Positions 56,007-63,933 of a stretch of 64,000 bases of DNA are shown here, piece after piece. Numbering within the stretch: the stretch's first letter is position 1; the number at the start of each line of letters is the position of its first letter. The position numbers and the translations under genes are program-made. The notes beneath the pieces were generated by a model. The model saw only the letters and a program-made list of their open reading frames with translations, was not told where the DNA came from and searched no databases. This DNA comes from Bacteroidota bacterium (GTDB taxonomy: Bacteria > Bacteroidota > Bacteroidia > Flavobacteriales_F > PHOS-HE28): NCBI GenBank assembly GCA_029573495.1, contig JAKQEI010000104.1, forward strand, positions 62,001 to 126,000, in the 5' to 3' direction.

Positions 56007-57047
56007 ATGAAGCTCCGTCTTTCCTTCCTGATCGTTACCTCCTTGTTCGCCACGCGCTCCTGGGCACAGGATCCGAAGAAGCAGTATGTCCCGGCGCTCG
56101 TGGGCTTCTACAACATCGAGAACCTCTATGACACGATCGATTCACCGGACACGGACGACCATGAGTTCCTGCCCACCGGCAGCAAGCAGTGGACCGGCGA
56201 CCGATATCGGCGGAAATTGGACCATAACGCCCGCGTGATCGCGGAGATGGGCAAGGACCTGCATCCACGCGGAGTGGCCATCCTCGGCCTGTGCGAAGTG
56301 GAGAACCGAACGGTGGTCCAGGACCTGGTGAACACCACCGCGCTCAAGGAGCGGCATTACGCGATCGTTCATGAGGACTCACCGGACCGCCGCGGTGTCG
56401 ATGTCGCCCTGATCCACGACCCGGAACTCTACCGCGTGTTCAACCACAGGTCCTACCGCCTGGCCATGGCTGACACGTCCTTCCGAACCCGTGACCAGTT
56501 GCTCGTGAGCGGTGTGCTCGACGGCGACACCACGCACGTTATCGTCTGTCACTGGCCATCACGCCGAGGGGGTGAGAAGCGTTCGGAGCCCAACCGGAAA
56601 GCGGCTGCGGAACTGGCCCGTCACATCATCGACTCCCTCCTCACCGAGAACAACAATGCGCACATCCTGCTCATGGGCGACCTGAACGATGACCCGGTGA
56701 ACGTGAGCGTTTCCCGGTTCGTGAACGCCACCGGCGACCGGAAGAAGGCCGTGGACAAGGTCTTCTTCAATGCGATGTACGAGCCCTACATGAAAGGGAT
56801 CGGTACACTGGCCTGGCGCGATTCCTGGAACCTGTTCGACCAGATCATACTCTCGCCGGCTCTCCTGACCGGAGCCGGAGGTCAGTACAAGTATTATGGC
56901 GTGCGGATCTTCAACGAAGGCTACCTGCGGCAGACCGAGGGGAACTTCGCGGGCTATCCGTTGCGGACCTACGTGGGCGATACCTATCAGGATGGCTTCA
57001 GCGACCACTTCCCGGTGTTCGTGATCCTGGTGAAGGAGTTGGAGTAG
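56007..57047 (+). CDS. secreted endonuclease/exonuclease/phosphatase family protein
   Basis: A 346-residue protein with a signal peptide (LSFLIVTSLFATRSWAQ). EEP-superfamily catalytic motifs are visible in order: VGFYNIENLYD, LGLCEVENRT, RRGVDVALIHDPE, VCHWPSRRGGEKRSEPNR, HILLMGDLNDDP and DGFSDHFPVFV, which supply the metal-binding Glu and Asp and the final catalytic His. Members cleave DNA, RNA or phosphodiesters. Given the TonB receptor and T9SS proteins on the opposite strand nearby, I read it as an envelope or extracellular nuclease. No T9SS sorting domain is seen, so it is likely periplasmic. Its stop lies 2 bases from the convergent gene. Confidence 0.9.
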   Translation: MKLRLSFLIVTSLFATRSWAQDPKKQYVPALVGFYNIENLYDTIDSPDTDDHEFLPTGSKQWTGDRYRRKLDHNARVIAEMGKDLHPRGVAILGLCEVENRTVVQDLVNTTALKERHYAIVHEDSPDRRGVDVALIHDPELYRVFNHRSYRLAMADTSFRTRDQLLVSGVLDGDTTHVIVCHWPSRRGGEKRSEPNRKAAAELARHIIDSLLTENNNAHILLMGDLNDDPVNVSVSRFVNATGDRKKAVDKVFFNAMYEPYMKGIGTLAWRDSWNLFDQIILSPALLTGAGGQYKYYGVRIFNEGYLRQTEGNFAGYPLRTYVGDTYQDGFSDHFPVFVILVKELE

Positions 57048-57049
57048 GG

Positions 57050-58405
57050 TCAGCGGACGATGATCCGTGCGACCCGGGTGGCACCGTCCACTTCGATGTG
57101 AAGCTGATAGGCACCCGGAGACAACCCATCGACGACCAGGCGGCCGACCGGGCGATCCAAATGATCTTGCTGCACGATGCGACCTTGCACGTCCGTCAGC
57201 TGATATCGCAACGCACCTGTACCGGAGGTGTGGATGGAGACCTGCTCACTGGCGGGGTTCGGGAATACGCTTATCAGCCCTGCGATGTGCTCTTCCACAC
57301 CGACGATCAACTCGATGTCCGCCTCGAAGCGCGGAAGCAGCACCATGTCTCCGGCGTAGAGCGCTATACCGGTGACCGTATAGGTGGCCCCGATGGTGGG
57401 GTAGTGGTAGTGGAGCAGGTCGTCGATGAAGAGCGACCCCTGGCCATTTCCAGCCGGCCAGTCGAAGTCGAAGGGGTCCGGTGCGTTCTGGCAGACAAGC
57501 TCCGGGACACGAACGAGCACGCTCTCCCATTGTTCTTCAGCCAGTGAGCCCATTTCCACCTCCACCGGTCCAGGTACTACGTGTCCGGAGCTGATCCGCT
57601 CCAGGTATTGGACGGCGATGATGCGGGTGCGTGAGAAGGCCCATGGATCATCCAGCCCGGAGAACTCGTCCACCGTACCGATCACCCGGACACTGTCGCC
57701 AGCGGCCAGGTCGGGATCGGCGGCGTACAGCACTTCGATACCGCTCCAAGGCCCGCTGCCAGCCTGGATGAAGACGCTGTTGGGCGCCACGGCCGTGACC
57801 ACACCCTGCGTGCGAACAAAGGCGAAGTTGAGCGGTGAGTAGCCATTGAACTCCTCGGTCTCCTGGATCTCCGCGATAGAGGCGGCTGTTGGTGCGGGCA
57901 GGGTGGAGGTGTTGATCGTCAGGTCATCGATGACGAGGGAGGAGCCATCCCCGGTCGCTTCCACATCGAACACGAACTCGGCATTGCTGGTGGTCGTCGT
58001 GGCCAGGACCGTCTGCAGTACGTACTGCCAGTCCGCGGTGTCGATCTGGAGCACCGTTCCATTCGGAGAGAAGCCACCGTTCTCCTCTCGGCCATCGAAC
58101 AAGCGTGTCCCGATCCGGCCACGCCCCCGCACCCAGTAGCGTACCTCGTAGATCCGATAAGCCTCGACGGGGAGTCCGGTGGTGGTCAGTGATGCAGGCT
58201 GGGCCAACCCCATGCGCATCGCACTCGTTCCGCCATGCACCGGATCGGTGATCTGGCTGATGCTGTCCAAGGGGATGGTGTTCTGCGATCCAACGAATCC
58301 CTCAGGTACAGCTTCCGTCCAGGCCTCGAAGCCGGATTGCAGGATGATCTGCGCATGGCCGGAGTGGCTCATAACAAGGCACAGGAGGATGAGGAATGCT
58401 CGCAT
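57050..58405 (-). CDS. T9SS-secreted protein with jelly-roll and OB-fold-like domains (paralogue 1)
   Basis: A 451-residue protein. Signal peptide (LILLCLVMSHSGHAQ), a carbohydrate-binding-like jelly roll (residues about 20-170, SGFEAWTEAVPEGFVGSQ, EVRYWVRGRG, LVIDDLTIN), an OB-fold-like segment (about 185-320, SPLNFAFVRTQGVVTAV, VFIQAGSGPWSGIEVL, AAGDSVRVIGTVDEF) and a T9SS type A sorting domain (SVFPNPASEQVSI to the end). The OB segment resembles the one fused to extracellular nucleases such as ExeM-type proteins. About collinear with the gene at 58554. Function inferred: surface binding of nucleic acid or glycan. A TAGCTTTG promoter element lies 13 bases before the start. Confidence 0.75.
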   Translation of the reverse strand: MRAFLILLCLVMSHSGHAQIILQSGFEAWTEAVPEGFVGSQNTIPLDSISQITDPVHGGTSAMRMGLAQPASLTTTGLPVEAYRIYEVRYWVRGRGRIGTRLFDGREENGGFSPNGTVLQIDTADWQYVLQTVLATTTTSNAEFVFDVEATGDGSSLVIDDLTINTSTLPAPTAASIAEIQETEEFNGYSPLNFAFVRTQGVVTAVAPNSVFIQAGSGPWSGIEVLYAADPDLAAGDSVRVIGTVDEFSGLDDPWAFSRTRIIAVQYLERISSGHVVPGPVEVEMGSLAEEQWESVLVRVPELVCQNAPDPFDFDWPAGNGQGSLFIDDLLHYHYPTIGATYTVTGIALYAGDMVLLPRFEADIELIVGVEEHIAGLISVFPNPASEQVSIHTSGTGALRYQLTDVQGRIVQQDHLDRPVGRLVVDGLSPGAYQLHIEVDGATRVARIIVR

Positions 58406-58418
58406 GGGTTCGTTCTCC

Positions 58419-58426
58419 CAAAGCTA
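58419..58426 (-). promoter_or_regulatory. promoter -7 element of T9SS paralogue 1
   Basis: The minus strand reads TAGCTTTG, an exact match to TAnnTTTG, 13 bases before the start codon. It is downstream of the terminator of the next gene, making this gene a separate unit. Confidence 0.5.
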
Positions 58427-58507
58427 GACCGTGGATGCGGACGCGACCACACGTCGGAGAAGTTCTTGGTGGGTCCCTACTGGTCCGATGACAATTGTCT
58501 GAACGGA

Positions 58508-58537
58508 AAGGGGCCGACCCTCGCAGGCCGGCCCCTT
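58508..58537 (-). terminator. terminator after T9SS paralogue 2
   Basis: On the minus strand AAGGGGCCG (58537-58529 side) pairs with CGGCCCCTT (58516-58508 side), a perfect 9-bp stem with a 12-base loop, followed by a short TTTCC run. It lies 16 bases after the stop of the 58554 gene. Confidence 0.6.
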
Positions 58538-58553
58538 CTGAAGGACGGATGGA

Positions 58554-59897
58554 TCAGTGCTGTACCGAGATGCGTTCCGTGCTGATACCAGCCTCGGTGC
58601 GAACGGTCAACAGGTAGACCCCGTTGGCCAGGTCACCAACGTTCAATACGGCATTATCGGTGGCGGTCACATCGTTCATGACCATGCGGCCGGCCGCATC
58701 CATCAGGACGAGTTCAGCACGACCTGATGCCGCCGGTAGCGTCACGCGCACCAGGTCCGTAGCAGGGTTCGGGAAGATGGCCACATGGATGTCCACGTTC
58801 TCCGTCACGCCGCTGCCTACGCTCACATCGTTCACATCGCGCGGCAGCACGCGCCAGGCGGAGAAGGAGAACTGCGTCGGGCCGGTGACGTTGTAGAACG
58901 CGCCCACGGTCGGGGTGTATTCGTAGAGCACATCATCCACCAGCATGCTGCCCAGCCAGTTCGTGATGGGCCACTCGGCGAAGTTGTTCGGTGCACCGGT
59001 GCATTCCACATCAGGGACGGTCACCAGTACCGATTCCCACTGCTCCTGCGAAGCGCTGGTCGGGTCAAGCACCTCCGGTGCGGGTTCGGCGTTCCCGGAA
59101 CTCATCACCATGAAGGCGCTCACGCCGGTCAATCGCGTGAATCCGAAGTTCTCCTGAACGCTCGCGGTCACTTCAACAAGGTCTCCGCGAACTGGAGCAT
59201 TCGTCGCATCGTTCACGAAGATCCCGTTCCAAGGGCCCGTGCCATCCTGCAGGAAGTAGCCCGTACCGGCCTTGGCTCCCGTGACGATCCCCATGGTGAT
59301 CACGTTCGTGTTCATCAGGGGCGAATCGCCGGAAGCGTCCTCCGTGTACTGGATCTCGTAGATCGTGGCTTCCGTCGGTGGGACCACGACGCCATCGGAG
59401 ATGGTCACATCGTCCACGACCAAATGGTCGGGGCCAACGGTGCCAAGGATCGAGAGGATGAACTCTGCTTCCGCCGTGGTCATTTCCGCAGAGACCGTCT
59501 GGGTCACCTCCTGCCAGTCAGCGGCTACGAGTTCAACGTAGTCGTTGTACGCGGCATAGCCTGAACCCGTGGGACGACCATCATAGATGCCGGTGCGGAT
59601 GCTGCCCGTGCCACGCACCCAGAAGGTGATGTCATAGGAGGCACCTGCGGTCACGCTCTGGGCGACCGTTGTGAAGCGCTTGTGGGTACCCGTGCTCAGT
59701 TGCAGGCGAACCGCGCTGCTGCCGCTGTGCGGGTTGTTCGTTTCCTGGAAGATGCTGTCCGTAGAGAGGTTGTTCCGGGCCCCCACGAATCCATCGGGCA
59801 GGCCGTCCGTCCAGGATTCCAGGTCACTGGTGAAGACCTGGGCGTTCATGCTGGTGGCACCGATCAGGAGCAGGGCGCCGAGGGTAATGTGTTTCAT
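58554..59897 (-). CDS. T9SS-secreted protein with jelly-roll and OB-fold-like domains (paralogue 2)
   Basis: A 447-residue protein paralogous to the 57050 gene along its whole length: LESWTDGLPDGFVGARN, SYDITFWVRGTG, YEIQYTEDASGDSPL, VITMGIVTGAKAGTGYFLQDG with GPWNGIFV, EQWESVLVTVPDVEC and a T9SS type A sorting domain (AIFPNPATDLVRVTL). Signal peptide LGALLLIGATSMNAQ. It lies downstream of the DUF5689-like lipoprotein and TonB receptor genes on the same strand, 38 bases away, and is followed by a terminator, so it is probably the last gene of that operon. Confidence 0.78.
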   Translation of the reverse strand: MKHITLGALLLIGATSMNAQVFTSDLESWTDGLPDGFVGARNNLSTDSIFQETNNPHSGSSAVRLQLSTGTHKRFTTVAQSVTAGASYDITFWVRGTGSIRTGIYDGRPTGSGYAAYNDYVELVAADWQEVTQTVSAEMTTAEAEFILSILGTVGPDHLVVDDVTISDGVVVPPTEATIYEIQYTEDASGDSPLMNTNVITMGIVTGAKAGTGYFLQDGTGPWNGIFVNDATNAPVRGDLVEVTASVQENFGFTRLTGVSAFMVMSSGNAEPAPEVLDPTSASQEQWESVLVTVPDVECTGAPNNFAEWPITNWLGSMLVDDVLYEYTPTVGAFYNVTGPTQFSFSAWRVLPRDVNDVSVGSGVTENVDIHVAIFPNPATDLVRVTLPAASGRAELVLMDAAGRMVMNDVTATDNAVLNVGDLANGVYLLTVRTEAGISTERISVQH

Positions 59898-59935
59898 GCG
59901 CGTTGGATGTTGGAGGTTAATGAATGGAACCGGCT

Positions 59936-61207
59936 CTAGTCCACGTTGATCCGGATATTGTCCAGCTCCCAGGTCTTGCCGTCGGTGCTCGAACCGGTGT
60001 ACTTGAAGGCGATGTGGGTGTTCGCACTGATGAAGGCGTTCAGGTCGAGGTCGCCGCTCGGGGTCCAGGTCCAGCTGCCGGTGCTGAGCGCGGGGCTGAG
60101 GTTCGTCCAGGTGCCGGTGCTCGGATCGCCGCTCACATAATCAGTGCTCACCAGCACCTCGAGCGCGGCCCCATTGTAGTTGCACGCGGTCACGAAGCTC
60201 AGACGCGGGTTCGTGCGGGAGGTCAGGTCGATGGAACGGCTGATCAACCACGACTGGCCGGGCACGTTCACATTGTTGATGTAGTTCTTGCACTGACCGT
60301 AGGCCGTGCCATCGATGCTCCCGATCGTGTTCGTGTTCCAGGGGATGTTGTTGTCCGACCATTGGCTCCAGCCATCGGAGGCCACGTTCCCATCGTTGAA
60401 GTTCTTGAAGAAGAAGGGGCATGTGTTCGCCGGTGTGGTGCCATCGCAGCGGGTGCCGTTCATCTGCACGCCGGCCATGTTGCGGTTGCTCAATTGGATG
60501 GTGGTCCCGAAGATGCCCGCCACGCATACGATGGAGCCTTTGCCGAGCGGCAAGGGCTGTCCCGCGTAGCTCGCATATCCGCTCGTGCGCACCATCACTG
60601 AGGAACCGGTGCATCCACGGATGAAACGCTCGCCGACCGTCTGTGCAGCGGCATTCGCCCAGGTCTGTCCGCAGGGGTCCTCGAACTCCACGTCGTTCAC
60701 TCGGATCAATCGGCTCTGCAGGGTGTCCATGGCCTGCAAGGTGAGCTGGCTCGTGGTGACGTTCAGGGGCTCGACGTTCACACCGGTCGCCTGTTTCACC
60801 GTGTTGTTGTCCACGTCAACGCTGTCCAACTGCATCAACCCGTTGTACGGAGCAAGCACCGTTCCTGGCAGGTAGATCCGGATGCTGTCGCCGATGTACA
60901 GCCCGCCGCTGTTCAGCAACCGCAGCGTGAGGCCACCCGTATGGTCCTGCACACTGATGTTCTTGTAGAAGTTGCCATCCACTTCATCCGCCGTCACCAC
61001 CGCGTACACGCTCTTCGACTCGGGGAAGTGGACACGCGTGCCGGTGTAGAGCGCTTTCAACTCGGCGATGGTCATCACACTACCGACCGGCAGCACCCGC
61101 TCCGGCGGGGTGTCGAATTCCTTCTTGCAGGCGACGGCCACCACGGTCAGGCCAAGGGCGAGCACCAGGGTGCGCGTGTTCTTCACGGAAAGGGTTTGCA
61201 TGGGCAT
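59936..61207 (-). CDS. DUF5689-like surface lipoprotein with choice-of-anchor-type C-terminal domain
   Basis: A 423-residue protein. The N-terminus (LVLALGLTVVAVACKKEFD) has a lipobox-like AVAC with Cys near residue 27, followed by the charged KKEFD, as in exported Bacteroidota lipoproteins. Residues about 40-250 match the DUF5689 pattern, with MTIAELKALYTG, VYAVVTADEVDGNFYKNISV and DSIRIYLPGTVL, which is an OB-like fold. Residues 265-423 form a jelly roll (FFKNFNDGNVASDGWSQW, SWLISRSIDLTSR, WELDNIRIN). Probably held on the cell surface as partner of the TonB receptor, whose gene it overlaps by one base. Confidence 0.75.
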   Translation of the reverse strand: MPMQTLSVKNTRTLVLALGLTVVAVACKKEFDTPPERVLPVGSVMTIAELKALYTGTRVHFPESKSVYAVVTADEVDGNFYKNISVQDHTGGLTLRLLNSGGLYIGDSIRIYLPGTVLAPYNGLMQLDSVDVDNNTVKQATGVNVEPLNVTTSQLTLQAMDTLQSRLIRVNDVEFEDPCGQTWANAAAQTVGERFIRGCTGSSVMVRTSGYASYAGQPLPLGKGSIVCVAGIFGTTIQLSNRNMAGVQMNGTRCDGTTPANTCPFFFKNFNDGNVASDGWSQWSDNNIPWNTNTIGSIDGTAYGQCKNYINNVNVPGQSWLISRSIDLTSRTNPRLSFVTACNYNGAALEVLVSTDYVSGDPSTGTWTNLSPALSTGSWTWTPSGDLDLNAFISANTHIAFKYTGSSTDGKTWELDNIRINVD

Positions 61208-63741
61208 CAGAAACTGAAGGTCAACATGGCGAAGTAGTTCCGCCCGAAGAGGTAACTGTATTTGGGGGGGAACCGGTCGACGTCCATGCGGTCATACCGC
61301 AGTTGTTCGAAGCCACCCACCTTGAAATCCTGGTTGTCGAGCACGTTGCTCACGGAGAGGTTGAACGCGATCCGGTACTTGCGTTTGATCATCCACGACT
61401 TGCCCGCAAAGGCATCCACGGTCATGTTGTCATCCAGCTTCTCCTGGGTCAGCAGACCATCCCACTGCGGATCGGTCACCACGAGATTATCGACAGCCGG
61501 CTCCGTGCGGCGGTCCGGGTTCGGGTCCAGGTAGATGTTCCCGAACCAGTTCACGTTCACGCCAGCGAACCAGAACTTGGGCGAGTTGTAGCGCAACCCA
61601 AGGGACGCGGCGGTCTGCGGCATGCCGCCGACCTTGTAGTTCTTCCAGTATACGGTGCGTTCGGAGGCGAAAACCTCCGGGCTGTTGTTGCGCGTGATCG
61701 TGGCCATAGGTCGCGAATCATAGCGATAATCGCCACCGGCATATACCGCGGTCATCTGCCATGTGCTGGTGAGGTTGGCCTCAAGACCGAGCTCGACCCC
61801 GCGGTTGATCTGATCGACACCCGTCATGTTGTAGTTCACGATGGTGAGGTATTCATCGTGGTAGAAGCTCCGCGACCAGAGCTGATCGTAGATCCTGGTG
61901 TAATAGAGGGTGGCGCGTCCCTTCAGGCGAGGGAACCGCACCACGTAGCCGATATCGCCGGTATACACCTTCTCGCTCGTGAGCCCGGGTATGGCCCCAT
62001 CATGGACCCGCGGGCTCAGGTAGGCGACGTTGGTCGCTGGCGGTCGGCTCAGGAAGGCCGCGTTCGCTGCGATGAAGTGCCGCCCGGTGACCTTGTAGAG
62101 GCCACCTGCCTTGATGCCGAAGTTCAGGAAGCCGTGGTCCTCACCCTTCCCTTTGGACGTCTCGGGAAAGCGGCCATTGCGAAGGTTCCCGTCGCGCCAG
62201 AAGGTGGTCTGTGCCACGGAAGCACCCACATAGGCCTCCACCTTCTGCCACTTCTTCTCAAACTGGCCGAACACGTTCACCAAACGCGTGTTCATGTAGT
62301 AGTCCCAACCGAACACATCCCCGACCTCCACCAGCTTGTTCGGACGGTCCAGGTCGTTCTGGGAGATGATCGTGTCATTGAAGTCGCGGTCCGCGAACTG
62401 GTCGATGTCGACCCAATAGTCACCGCCGAGCAGGTCGGACACCGTGTTGAAGTAGTGTGTGCGCTGCAGGTTGAAGCTGCCGCCAATGGTCACATGACGG
62501 TCGTTGGTCATTTCCTTGCTGTACACACTGTTGATGCCGATCCGGTTGGGGTCGGCGCGTTGCTCCTGTACGATGTACTTGCTCCGGTTGCCGGTCACAT
62601 CGTTCCCCGCGATGCCGTTCGCATTCCGCACCGTGTAGAGGTTCTTGCCATTGGCGAAGTACAACTGGTCCCAGTCGATCTGCCGTGCGTTCACATCGGT
62701 GCGCCAGGCCTCCTGCAACTCTGCATAGACCGCCGGGTTCGTCTCGCGGTAGTAGCTCGGCAGGTAGCGGTAATAGTCTGCCCGTGGGTCCTTCGCATCG
62801 AACCAGTTCAATCCGGAGGAACCATCGCGACCGAAGGTGTAGAAGAGGCTCGTGTTCCACTCCGTGCCTTCGCTGGGCTTGTAGTAGTGGCTCGCCATCA
62901 GCAACGGCTTGTGGTCGAAGGTCATCCGGGCGTTCCGCTTCTCACCGTTCTGATAGCCCCAGTTCGGGTTGTAATAGCTGGTGCCAGCCAGGTCATAGGC
63001 CTCCTGCACCGCCACCCCGGACCGGCCCTGGACGATCGGGGCTCCGAAGCCGGAGAAGCTCACACTGTGCTTCTCGTTGATCTTGTGTTCGGCGCTCAGG
63101 AAGTAGGCGTACGCATCGAAGGAGGTGCCTTCCACATAACCTTCCTCCGCCCAGCGTCGCGAACCACTGAAGCTGAAGGACCATCCGTTCTTCATCAATC
63201 CGGTGGAACCGGTCACCATCATGCGGTTGCGATAAGCCCTGTTGGTGGAGGCGTAGGAAACGCGGATGCCTTTGCGCAGGCTGCTCGACCGGACGTTGAT
63301 ATCCGTGGAACCGCCCACCCCACCGAAGTTGTAACGGGTGGCGCCAAGTCCCGTGCGTACCTGCATCCACCTGGTCACGTCGTTCAGGCCCGCCCAGCTT
63401 GACCATTGCGCCCAGCCGGTCTCCAGATCGTTCACGAGCACCCCGTTGATGGTGACCAGGGTGTTCTCCGAATCGTATCCACGGATGCGGAAGCGCGCAG
63501 AACCGAAGTTGAAGCCGGCAACGGCCGTGAACACGTCGCGAGAGGATTGCAGAATGCCGGAAATGTCCTGCGACCCGAGTTCCGCATCCAGGTCGTCCGC
63601 CGTAATGGTGAACACCGGCAACTGCGGCCGGTTCACGGCACTGGTGTCGGGGATCACGGGAGTCAGGGTCGTGTCCGATTGTGCCTGGGCACCAGTAATG
63701 ACAGCGCCGACAAGGGCGGTCGCGAGTAGGGTCCTGATCAT
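61207..63741 (-). CDS. TonB-dependent receptor of the nuclease/DUF5689 locus
   Basis: An 844-residue outer-membrane receptor. Signal peptide (TLLATALVGAVITGAQAQ), no carboxypeptidase-like domain, a plug (residues about 45-160, FTITADDLDAELGSQDISGI, FRIRGYDSENTLVTINGV, VGGSTDINVRSSSLRKG) and barrel to NYFAMLTFSF with a terminal aromatic Phe. Many strands carry Tyr-rich loops (YRYLPSYYRETNPAVY). Start at ATG 63739-63741 chosen for the signal peptide; a TACCTTTG promoter element lies 79 bases upstream. First gene of an operon with the DUF5689-like lipoprotein and a T9SS protein. Cargo unknown; nucleotides or organic phosphate suggested by the neighbouring nuclease. Confidence 0.88.
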   Translation of the reverse strand: MIRTLLATALVGAVITGAQAQSDTTLTPVIPDTSAVNRPQLPVFTITADDLDAELGSQDISGILQSSRDVFTAVAGFNFGSARFRIRGYDSENTLVTINGVLVNDLETGWAQWSSWAGLNDVTRWMQVRTGLGATRYNFGGVGGSTDINVRSSSLRKGIRVSYASTNRAYRNRMMVTGSTGLMKNGWSFSFSGSRRWAEEGYVEGTSFDAYAYFLSAEHKINEKHSVSFSGFGAPIVQGRSGVAVQEAYDLAGTSYYNPNWGYQNGEKRNARMTFDHKPLLMASHYYKPSEGTEWNTSLFYTFGRDGSSGLNWFDAKDPRADYYRYLPSYYRETNPAVYAELQEAWRTDVNARQIDWDQLYFANGKNLYTVRNANGIAGNDVTGNRSKYIVQEQRADPNRIGINSVYSKEMTNDRHVTIGGSFNLQRTHYFNTVSDLLGGDYWVDIDQFADRDFNDTIISQNDLDRPNKLVEVGDVFGWDYYMNTRLVNVFGQFEKKWQKVEAYVGASVAQTTFWRDGNLRNGRFPETSKGKGEDHGFLNFGIKAGGLYKVTGRHFIAANAAFLSRPPATNVAYLSPRVHDGAIPGLTSEKVYTGDIGYVVRFPRLKGRATLYYTRIYDQLWSRSFYHDEYLTIVNYNMTGVDQINRGVELGLEANLTSTWQMTAVYAGGDYRYDSRPMATITRNNSPEVFASERTVYWKNYKVGGMPQTAASLGLRYNSPKFWFAGVNVNWFGNIYLDPNPDRRTEPAVDNLVVTDPQWDGLLTQEKLDDNMTVDAFAGKSWMIKRKYRIAFNLSVSNVLDNQDFKVGGFEQLRYDRMDVDRFPPKYSYLFGRNYFAMLTFSF

Positions 63742-63820: not shown

Positions 63821-63828
63821 CAAAGGTA
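63821..63828 (-). promoter_or_regulatory. promoter -7 element of the TonB/DUF5689 operon
   Basis: The minus strand reads TACCTTTG, an exact match to TAnnTTTG, 79 bases before the receptor start. Confidence 0.5.
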
Positions 63829-63933
63829 ATTGTCCGGACCGCACGATCCAGGTTCCCGCAAGGTTACCTGATCAACGACTTTTCTGGGGATTCCATCGAA
63901 GCGCCGACCCTGTCCATCGAATTGCGCTAGTCC

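Follow-up and report, generated by a model that had tools for sequence, protein, structure and literature searches.

The five genes at positions 56007 to 63741 of the window (the whole 64-kb stretch of DNA that was analysed) probably encode a module that takes DNA up through the outer membrane for natural transformation. Sequence comparison makes the receptor and the lipoprotein orthologs, by position and architecture, of RA0C_RS04915 and RA0C_RS04920 of Riemerella anatipestifer, and markerless deletion of either of these genes brought natural transformation below detection (Huang et al. 2021, PMC8459023). For the organism studied here, we infer DNA binding, passage of DNA through the receptor, the role of the nuclease-like enzyme, and any function of the locus. 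An earlier sequence-only reading had proposed a surface system for scavenging nucleic acid or organic phosphate. Its outline, a nucleic-acid lipoprotein/TonB pair with a nuclease beside it, was borne out, the R. anatipestifer counterparts being essential (PMC8459023); the phosphate or nutrient purpose was not.

Locus organization

All five open reading frames were confirmed at the positions given in the sequence-only reading, with families as described there. The TonB-dependent-type outer-membrane receptor (844 aa; 61207..63741, minus strand) has a Plug domain (PF07715, 35.8 bits, cut-off 23.9), and its stop codon is overlapped by the start codon of a 423-aa surface-type lipoprotein with DUF5689 and choice-of-anchor J domains (59936..61207, minus strand). 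T9SS-exported protein A (58554..59897, minus strand) and its paralog, protein B (57050..58405, minus strand), come next. The fifth gene (56007..57047, plus strand) encodes a Sec-exported, nuclease-like enzyme of 346 aa of the EEP family (PF19580); it is convergent with the minus-strand genes across a gap of 2 bp and therefore lies outside the operon, and a single operon of all five genes was ruled out on this ground. Possible Bacteroidota-type promoters were located on the minus strand at 63821..63851 (TTG-N20-TAnnTTTG with 1 mismatch, 80 bp 5' of the receptor) and at 58419..58449 (14 bp 5' of protein B); the pattern had 2 matches in the whole 64 kb, with 2.7 expected by chance.

Orthology to the transformation genes of R. 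anatipestifer

The genome used as R. anatipestifer is probably of that species, judging by its gene order and domains. It carries recA, dinB, sdhBAC, comEC, two genes, an EEP gene, the receptor, and the lipoprotein, in that order, exactly as the numbering RA0C_RS04870-04920 requires and with domains as in PMC8459023; dprA, DUF1343, and a multi-HHH protein lie near the positions predicted from locus tags. From the matching order and domains, the EEP gene was assigned as RA0C_RS04910. The window receptor and its counterpart were reciprocal best matches (E about 2e-118, about 395 bits both ways, 35% identity), and the lipoproteins matched by BLASTP at E 1e-13 with only 25% identity. Homologs of ComEC, DprA, HHH, and DUF1343/NamZ are present in the window's own genome. 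HHH proteins were found in 36/37 genomes of the class, receptor present or absent, and being near-universal they do not give a competence-specific phylogenetic profile.

In R. anatipestifer, transformation was lowered in tonBA and tonBB mutants, the former without an iron-uptake defect (PMC8383284). RA0C_RS04910 was outside the set of genes deleted in PMC8459023, and the EEP gene was absent from the hits of the 3000-mutant screen in that work, which was not saturating. Flavobacterium johnsoniae has homologs of the pair, yet was not transformable under the conditions tried (PMC8459023); the role of the pair could be specialised in Riemerella.

Neighbourhood conservation in Bacteroidia

The receptor belongs to a family spread through class Bacteroidia; no match was obtained when viral contigs were scanned with it. 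Across the class, from Flavobacteriales to Bacteroidales, Chitinophagales, and Saprospirales, a module of three genes is kept: that for the TonB-type receptor; immediately 3' of it, that for a DUF5689 lipoprotein; and that for a Sec-exported EEP protein, which usually lies on the 5' side of the receptor gene in divergent orientation, about 100-170 bp away. For loci with enough sequence, the lipoprotein directly followed the receptor in 21/21, 76/76, and 20/20 in three counts, and in the same counts the EEP gene adjoined the receptor in 14/21, 57/68, and 18/19. The receptor and a strong DUF5689 match occurred in the same 22 genomes and in no others, and all 22 had the EEP gene (P 2.5e-7 within the class). 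This neighbourhood conservation is far beyond chance. Co-occurrence of all five genes had been expected; the receptor, lipoprotein, and nuclease do adjoin class-wide, but the T9SS proteins are a minority addition, present in 13/81 loci.

In the tree, the window EEP protein falls within the module EEP clade, as a member whose gene has been relocated. In the window lineage the nuclease gene has moved to the 3' end, where it is convergent, and two T9SS proteins with ExeM-like OB-fold segments have been added. The EEP protein might instead be a linked but functionally separate enzyme, such as an envelope phosphodiesterase, kept close for regulatory reasons. We give this about one chance in four: the gene is divergent and not in the operon, it was shifted in the window lineage, it lies 16-41 kb away in four genomes of one genus, and EEP_3 is found also in genomes without the receptor. 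However, it is directly 5' of the receptor in the 57/68 loci, which span several orders, and adjoins the operon even after relocation. The EEP enzyme is kept here as a candidate DNA-processing nuclease of the uptake module.

Domain content of the exported proteins

The EEP protein scored 407.9 bits against PF19580 Exo_endo_phos_3 (cut-off 27), and its catalytic-motif residues (N36, E38, E99, D127, H182, D225, N227, D228, D278, D333, and H334) were invariant in 29 homologs. The sequence-only reading had called it a secreted nuclease. The family and a signal peptide-like N-terminus agree with this, but T9SS tail and lipobox are both absent, and the protein is therefore predicted to stay in the periplasm and not to be released; a periplasmic location is probable.

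The T9SS type A sorting domain (TIGR04183, cut-off 23) was found in the two T9SS proteins at 33.2 and 44.6 bits, and the two share 37% identity over 449 columns. Protein A consists of an N-terminal jelly-roll domain resembling carbohydrate-binding modules, an ExeM/DUF5689-like OB region at about 174-362, and the tail; protein B has an OB-type segment and the tail. The OB-type region of the T9SS family profile matched the solved ExeM-like EEP proteins 9sf8/9sf9 at their residues 2-81 (E 5e-8) and the ExeM/NucH model at its N-terminus (E 8e-8), in keeping with the earlier description of segments 180-320 as OB-like. One end of the 9sf8/9sf9 chains matches the T9SS proteins, and the other end matches the EEP family. 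The OB region is also homologous to DUF5689 by profile comparison (E 5e-8). The conserved module points to DUF5689 as a possible nucleic-acid-binding domain. PF16100 (RMI2, an OB protein) matched protein B at E 0.004, below the cut-off, and does not enter the OB assignment; no significant internal repeat of two OB folds was obtained for DUF5689 by profile comparison. Fold searches with the models of the lipoprotein and a T9SS protein gave matches solely to the jelly-roll domain; since this domain filled the lists, the OB assignment comes from profiles, and the DUF5689 half of the lipoprotein received no independent fold placement.

The lipoprotein scored 134.3 bits against PF18942 (DUF5689, cut-off 28.6) and 62.2 bits against NF038128, and it aligned end to end with NF052645 (M949_1556 lipoprotein subfamily) at 155.6 bits, under the curated cut-off of 475. 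The lipobox cysteine is C27, followed by KKEFD. The model (pLDDT 90.6) is all-beta except for the signal peptide and short helices, with a C-terminal MAM/jelly-roll domain (Z 16-17 in the fold search). Profile searches gave no SusD family match for this protein. A SusD-type partner for the receptor was rejected on the missing match and the all-beta model.

The jelly-roll domain of the lipoprotein, like that of the T9SS protein, resembles carbohydrate-binding modules, and in R. anatipestifer M949_1556, the locus tag after which its NCBIfam family is named, was connected with antigenicity and with LPS (cited in PMC4976936 and PMC12566107). Both points would fit an envelope or surface-assembly system with a different ligand (such as a glycan or protein), with the loss of transformation being indirect. 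This is very unlikely given that the OB region is common to nucleases, that the nuclease neighbour is conserved, and that comEC and recA are a few genes off in R. anatipestifer.

DNA uptake or nutrient scavenging

With nutritional scavenging of DNA/RNA or organic phosphate, the receptor would import fragments, the periplasmic EEP enzyme would degrade them, and transformation in Riemerella would be a by-product. A signal-peptide EEP enzyme beside a TonB receptor does resemble a pathway for degradation in the periplasm, one T9SS-protein homolog is fused to Endonuclease I, and in F. johnsoniae nucleases are induced alongside SusCD-like and TonB systems when Pi is depleted (PMC8115612). However, the Pi-induced lipoproteins in that study are polygalacturonase-like and not DUF5689, the conserved neighbourhood showed no phosphatase, nucleosidase, or nucleoside transporter, and phosphate removal lowered transformation in R. 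anatipestifer (PMC8383284). The whole 64-kb window had no match to a Pho box of the E. coli-type consensus, from which Bacteroidota boxes may differ. Scavenging is therefore considered unlikely, and its organic-phosphate form, as first proposed, was not upheld.

For the favoured DNA-uptake module, the surface lipoprotein would capture extracellular DNA through DUF5689, a putative OB-type nucleic-acid-binding region, and the two T9SS-exported OB-domain proteins would probably let the cell surface capture more. Powered by TonB, the receptor would pass DNA across the outer membrane. In the periplasm, the EEP enzyme would probably nick or degrade the duplex that enters, either to deliver single strands to ComEC or to recycle surplus DNA. 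Inside the cell, DprA and RecA would take over. More tentatively, and at somewhat less than even odds, a Bacteroidia-wide three-part importer (TonB receptor, OB-domain lipoprotein, and periplasmic EEP nuclease) may stand in for DNA uptake by the pilus/secretin route; the EEP enzyme would then be the missing nuclease from which single-stranded DNA arises.

The receptor-lipoprotein pair is already known; what the published work found does not contain is the nuclease as a third component, the spread over the class, and the connection between DUF5689 and the OB region, and no published test of the EEP neighbour gene in DNA uptake was found in the literature. The conserved module makes DNA passage over the Bacteroidota outer membrane testable, names RA0C_RS04910 and its orthologs as the third gene, and predicts which Bacteroidia may be capable of DNA uptake, by which genes and resistance can spread. 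If the proposal is true, a DNA-passing TonB-dependent receptor would be a new substrate class for the family.

Comparison with known systems

SusCD-like nutrient importers share with the window a TonB-type receptor and a co-transcribed lipoprotein, but the window lipoprotein is all-beta (a putative OB-type part plus jelly roll) and the conserved partner is a nuclease family rather than a glycosidase or phosphatase set. The Flavobacterium Pus phosphate-utilisation systems (PMC8115612) also combine TonB receptors with lipoproteins and phosphodiesterases; the window differs in its kind of lipoprotein, with no SusD and no E. coli-type Pho box. TonB, SusC, and DNA uptake were not found in the text of a paper on marine DNA degraders (PMC8289736). 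Extracellular nucleases of the ExeM/NucH (and YhcR) type have two building blocks in common with the window, the OB-type domain and the EEP domain, whereas in the window these are separate genes with different export routes, and the scores against NF033681 (ExeM/NucH) were far under the family cut-off of 300 (22.2 bits for the EEP protein and 31.5 bits for protein A).

In R. anatipestifer, as in the window, the receptor and the DUF5689/choice-of-anchor J lipoprotein are adjacent on the same strand with an EEP_3 gene alongside. The R. anatipestifer receptor has an N-terminal carboxypeptidase-regulatory domain, whereas a Pfam search found no such domain (PF13620/PF13715) in the window receptor. 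The nearby comEC and recA of R. anatipestifer are not adjacent to the locus in the window, which in turn has its EEP gene at the 3' end in convergent orientation and adds the two T9SS OB proteins.

Gene content and domains

Open reading frames were called at the positions of all five genes named in the sequence-only reading. The TonB-type receptor (61207-63741, minus strand; TonB Plug domain) is followed by a lipoprotein gene (59936-61207, minus strand), whose start codon overlaps the receptor stop codon, and by genes for two T9SS proteins, A (58554-59897, minus strand) and B (57050-58405, minus strand), which share 37% identity and both carry type A sorting tails scoring above the cut-off. 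By profile search, the lipoprotein contains DUF5689 and choice-of-anchor J domains; its lipobox Cys is followed by an acidic stretch (CKKEFD), as fits surface-exported Bacteroidota lipoproteins. The EEP nuclease-like gene (PF19580, EEP_3; 56007-57047, plus strand) is convergent with the operon, 2 bp from its last gene. Its product is most likely periplasmic, since the N-terminus is signal peptide-like and neither a lipobox nor a T9SS tail was found in the protein. Upstream of the receptor, a divergent gene (window 63934 to the contig end; L036:15935-18259) encodes a long repeat-rich surface protein and runs off the contig.

Region 179-254 of the T9SS family profile matches the N-terminus of the solved ExeM-like chains 9sf8/9sf9 (E 5e-8), whose C-terminal half is matched by the EEP profile (E 2e-7); two parts that are separate in the window are thus joined in one natural protein. 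The OB-like segments ascribed earlier to the T9SS proteins were borne out as far as this match of 179-254 goes; the fold itself comes from knowledge of the ExeM/YhcR families, from which we take the N-terminal part of 9sf8/9sf9 to be an OB fold. The lipoprotein DUF5689 region aligned with the T9SS OB region using hhalign (probability 94.8%, E 5e-8, 160 columns), and whole-protein profile comparison of the lipoprotein and T9SS protein gave E 4e-7. The lipoprotein and the T9SS proteins thus have two blocks in common, jelly roll and DUF5689/OB, in swapped order. In the predicted lipoprotein model (pLDDT 90.6), fold search identified the C-terminal domain as a MAM/gingipain-adhesin jelly roll (Z 16-17); because this domain filled the fold-search lists, the evidence for an OB fold in DUF5689 comes from profiles and from the pattern of strands. 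In one relative (L110:13256-15154), a T9SS-tailed protein in the T9SS position is fused to Endonuclease I (PF04231).

Conservation and gene order

A search of 148 evenly drawn phylum genomes with the receptor profile gave 22 full-length matches (at least 988 bits), none outside the class. The same 22 genomes, and no others, had a DUF5689 match above 130 bits, and all 22 also carried PF19580 (chance of this last within the class 2.5e-7). A GTDB contig scan with the receptor alignment returned more than 590 relatives, the best 80 of which include Bacteroidales, Saprospiraceae, Chitinophagaceae, Sphingobacteriaceae, and Crocinitomix, many being MAGs bearing submitters' names. For linkage counts, three sets of loci were picked by receptor alone. 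The lipoprotein lay directly 3' of the receptor on the same strand wherever sequence sufficed (21/21, 76/76, and 20/20 loci), and the EEP gene lay within 1.5 kb 5' of it in 14/21, 57/68, and 18/19 loci, nearly always divergent, with a median gap of 108-174 bp. Exceptions were four genomes of one genus, with EEP 16-41 kb off, and a few with none near. Of the 81 receptor loci from the GTDB scan, 13 had T9SS proteins, most of them in nearer relatives; of the five genes, receptor, lipoprotein, and EEP co-occur across the class, and the T9SS proteins are additions in a minority of loci.

In the window and its sister locus L067, EEP is at the operon 3' end. Their copies cluster in the EEP tree (96/57) beside that of L068, which has the canonical order, and all three fall within a well supported clade holding all copies from receptor-lipoprotein-EEP modules; other EEP_3 paralogs, some lacking a signal peptide, fall outside. 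The EEP gene has thus been relocated in the window arrangement.

Several variants were seen. In two genomes (L054:10463-11437 and L061:5429-6397) the pair is flanked on its 3' side by a second EEP_3 paralog that lacks a signal peptide, and tandem or double-length DUF5689 lipoproteins follow the receptor at L049, L056, L058, L062, L072, and others. At L032 (genome G134), EEP adjoins a weakly related receptor and there is no DUF5689 lipoprotein, an arrangement resembling the one described for Galbibacter in PMC8459023. The window's own genome (G000) encodes a second EEP_3 protein with a lipoprotein-like N-terminus, outside the module clade (L037:160-1182, contig C136), and, at a contig end, a partial receptor of the same family (C93:17-1063; 493.6 bits), which is either a duplicate or a contaminant (genome contamination 8.5%).

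Correspondence with Riemerella transformation genes

Among 5.39 million CC-licensed papers, a single one mentions DUF5689 (PMC8459023); it describes a transposon screen of Riemerella anatipestifer for natural transformation. In that species an operon encodes RA0C_RS04915, an outer-membrane protein with a carboxypeptidase regulatory-like domain, and RA0C_RS04920, which has DUF5689 and DUF5017; transformation was abolished when either gene was removed by markerless deletion. The authors of the screen proposed that RA0C_RS04920 binds DNA and that RA0C_RS04915 gives it passage across the outer membrane, did not identify the strand-degrading nuclease, and found RA0C_RS04915 homologs only in Flavobacteriaceae. 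In a companion paper (PMC8383284), tonBA and tonBB mutants transformed poorly, and the tonBA mutant showed no defect in iron use.

Each of the 22 lipoproteins in a first alignment matched the NCBIfam family that takes its name from R. anatipestifer M949_1556, and one family of genomes exceeded its cut-off. One of these, on a contig of 2,164,087 bp, has the order recA, dinB, sdhB, sdhA, sdhC, comEC, two genes, EEP, receptor, lipoprotein (Pfam searches confirmed recA, comEC, EEP, receptor, and lipoprotein; dinB and sdh were assigned by eye). With locus tags in steps of 5, this order reproduces RS04870 (RecA), RS04895 (ComEC), RS04915, and RS04920 of PMC8459023; the domains agree, and dprA, the DUF1343 gene, and a 3-HHH-unit protein lie near tag-predicted positions. 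The genome is thus probably that of R. anatipestifer ATCC 11845 or of a nearly identical strain, and its EEP gene, divergent from the receptor and 271 bp away, would be RA0C_RS04910, whose transcript was measured in PMC8459023 and which is absent from the deletion mutants listed there. The Riemerella and window receptors are reciprocal best matches (E about 2e-118, 35% identity), and the lipoproteins align across both domains (25% identity, E 1e-13).

Among competence-related proteins, the window's genome encodes ComEC (contig C259), DprA (the window's contig), an HHH protein, and a DUF1343/NamZ protein. Since nearly all class genomes have HHH proteins, with or without the receptor, this background is no more than permissive evidence of competence.

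Proposed function

The OB-domain surface proteins may capture DNA, which would pass through the receptor driven by TonB and be processed in the periplasm by the EEP enzyme before ComEC, DprA, and RecA take over. Of this scheme, experiments have shown only that receptor and lipoprotein (and TonB) are genetically required, and they did so in R. anatipestifer; that DNA is bound, that it passes through the receptor, and that EEP takes part are inferences. A nutrient function, including the scavenging of organic phosphate proposed in the sequence-only reading, is the weaker explanation, because no E. coli-type Pho box was found in the 64-kb window, including upstream of the receptor (Bacteroidota boxes may differ from that consensus), the conserved neighbourhood showed no phosphatase or transporter, and the systems that Flavobacterium induces under Pi depletion differ in kind (PMC8115612).

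The receptor/lipoprotein pair and its link to transformation were already published (PMC8459023). The CC-licensed papers searched did not yield a conserved EEP nuclease as third component, a spread of the module over the class rather than Flavobacteriaceae alone, or homology between DUF5689 and the OB region; nor did they yield the added T9SS proteins and the relocated nuclease of the window lineage.
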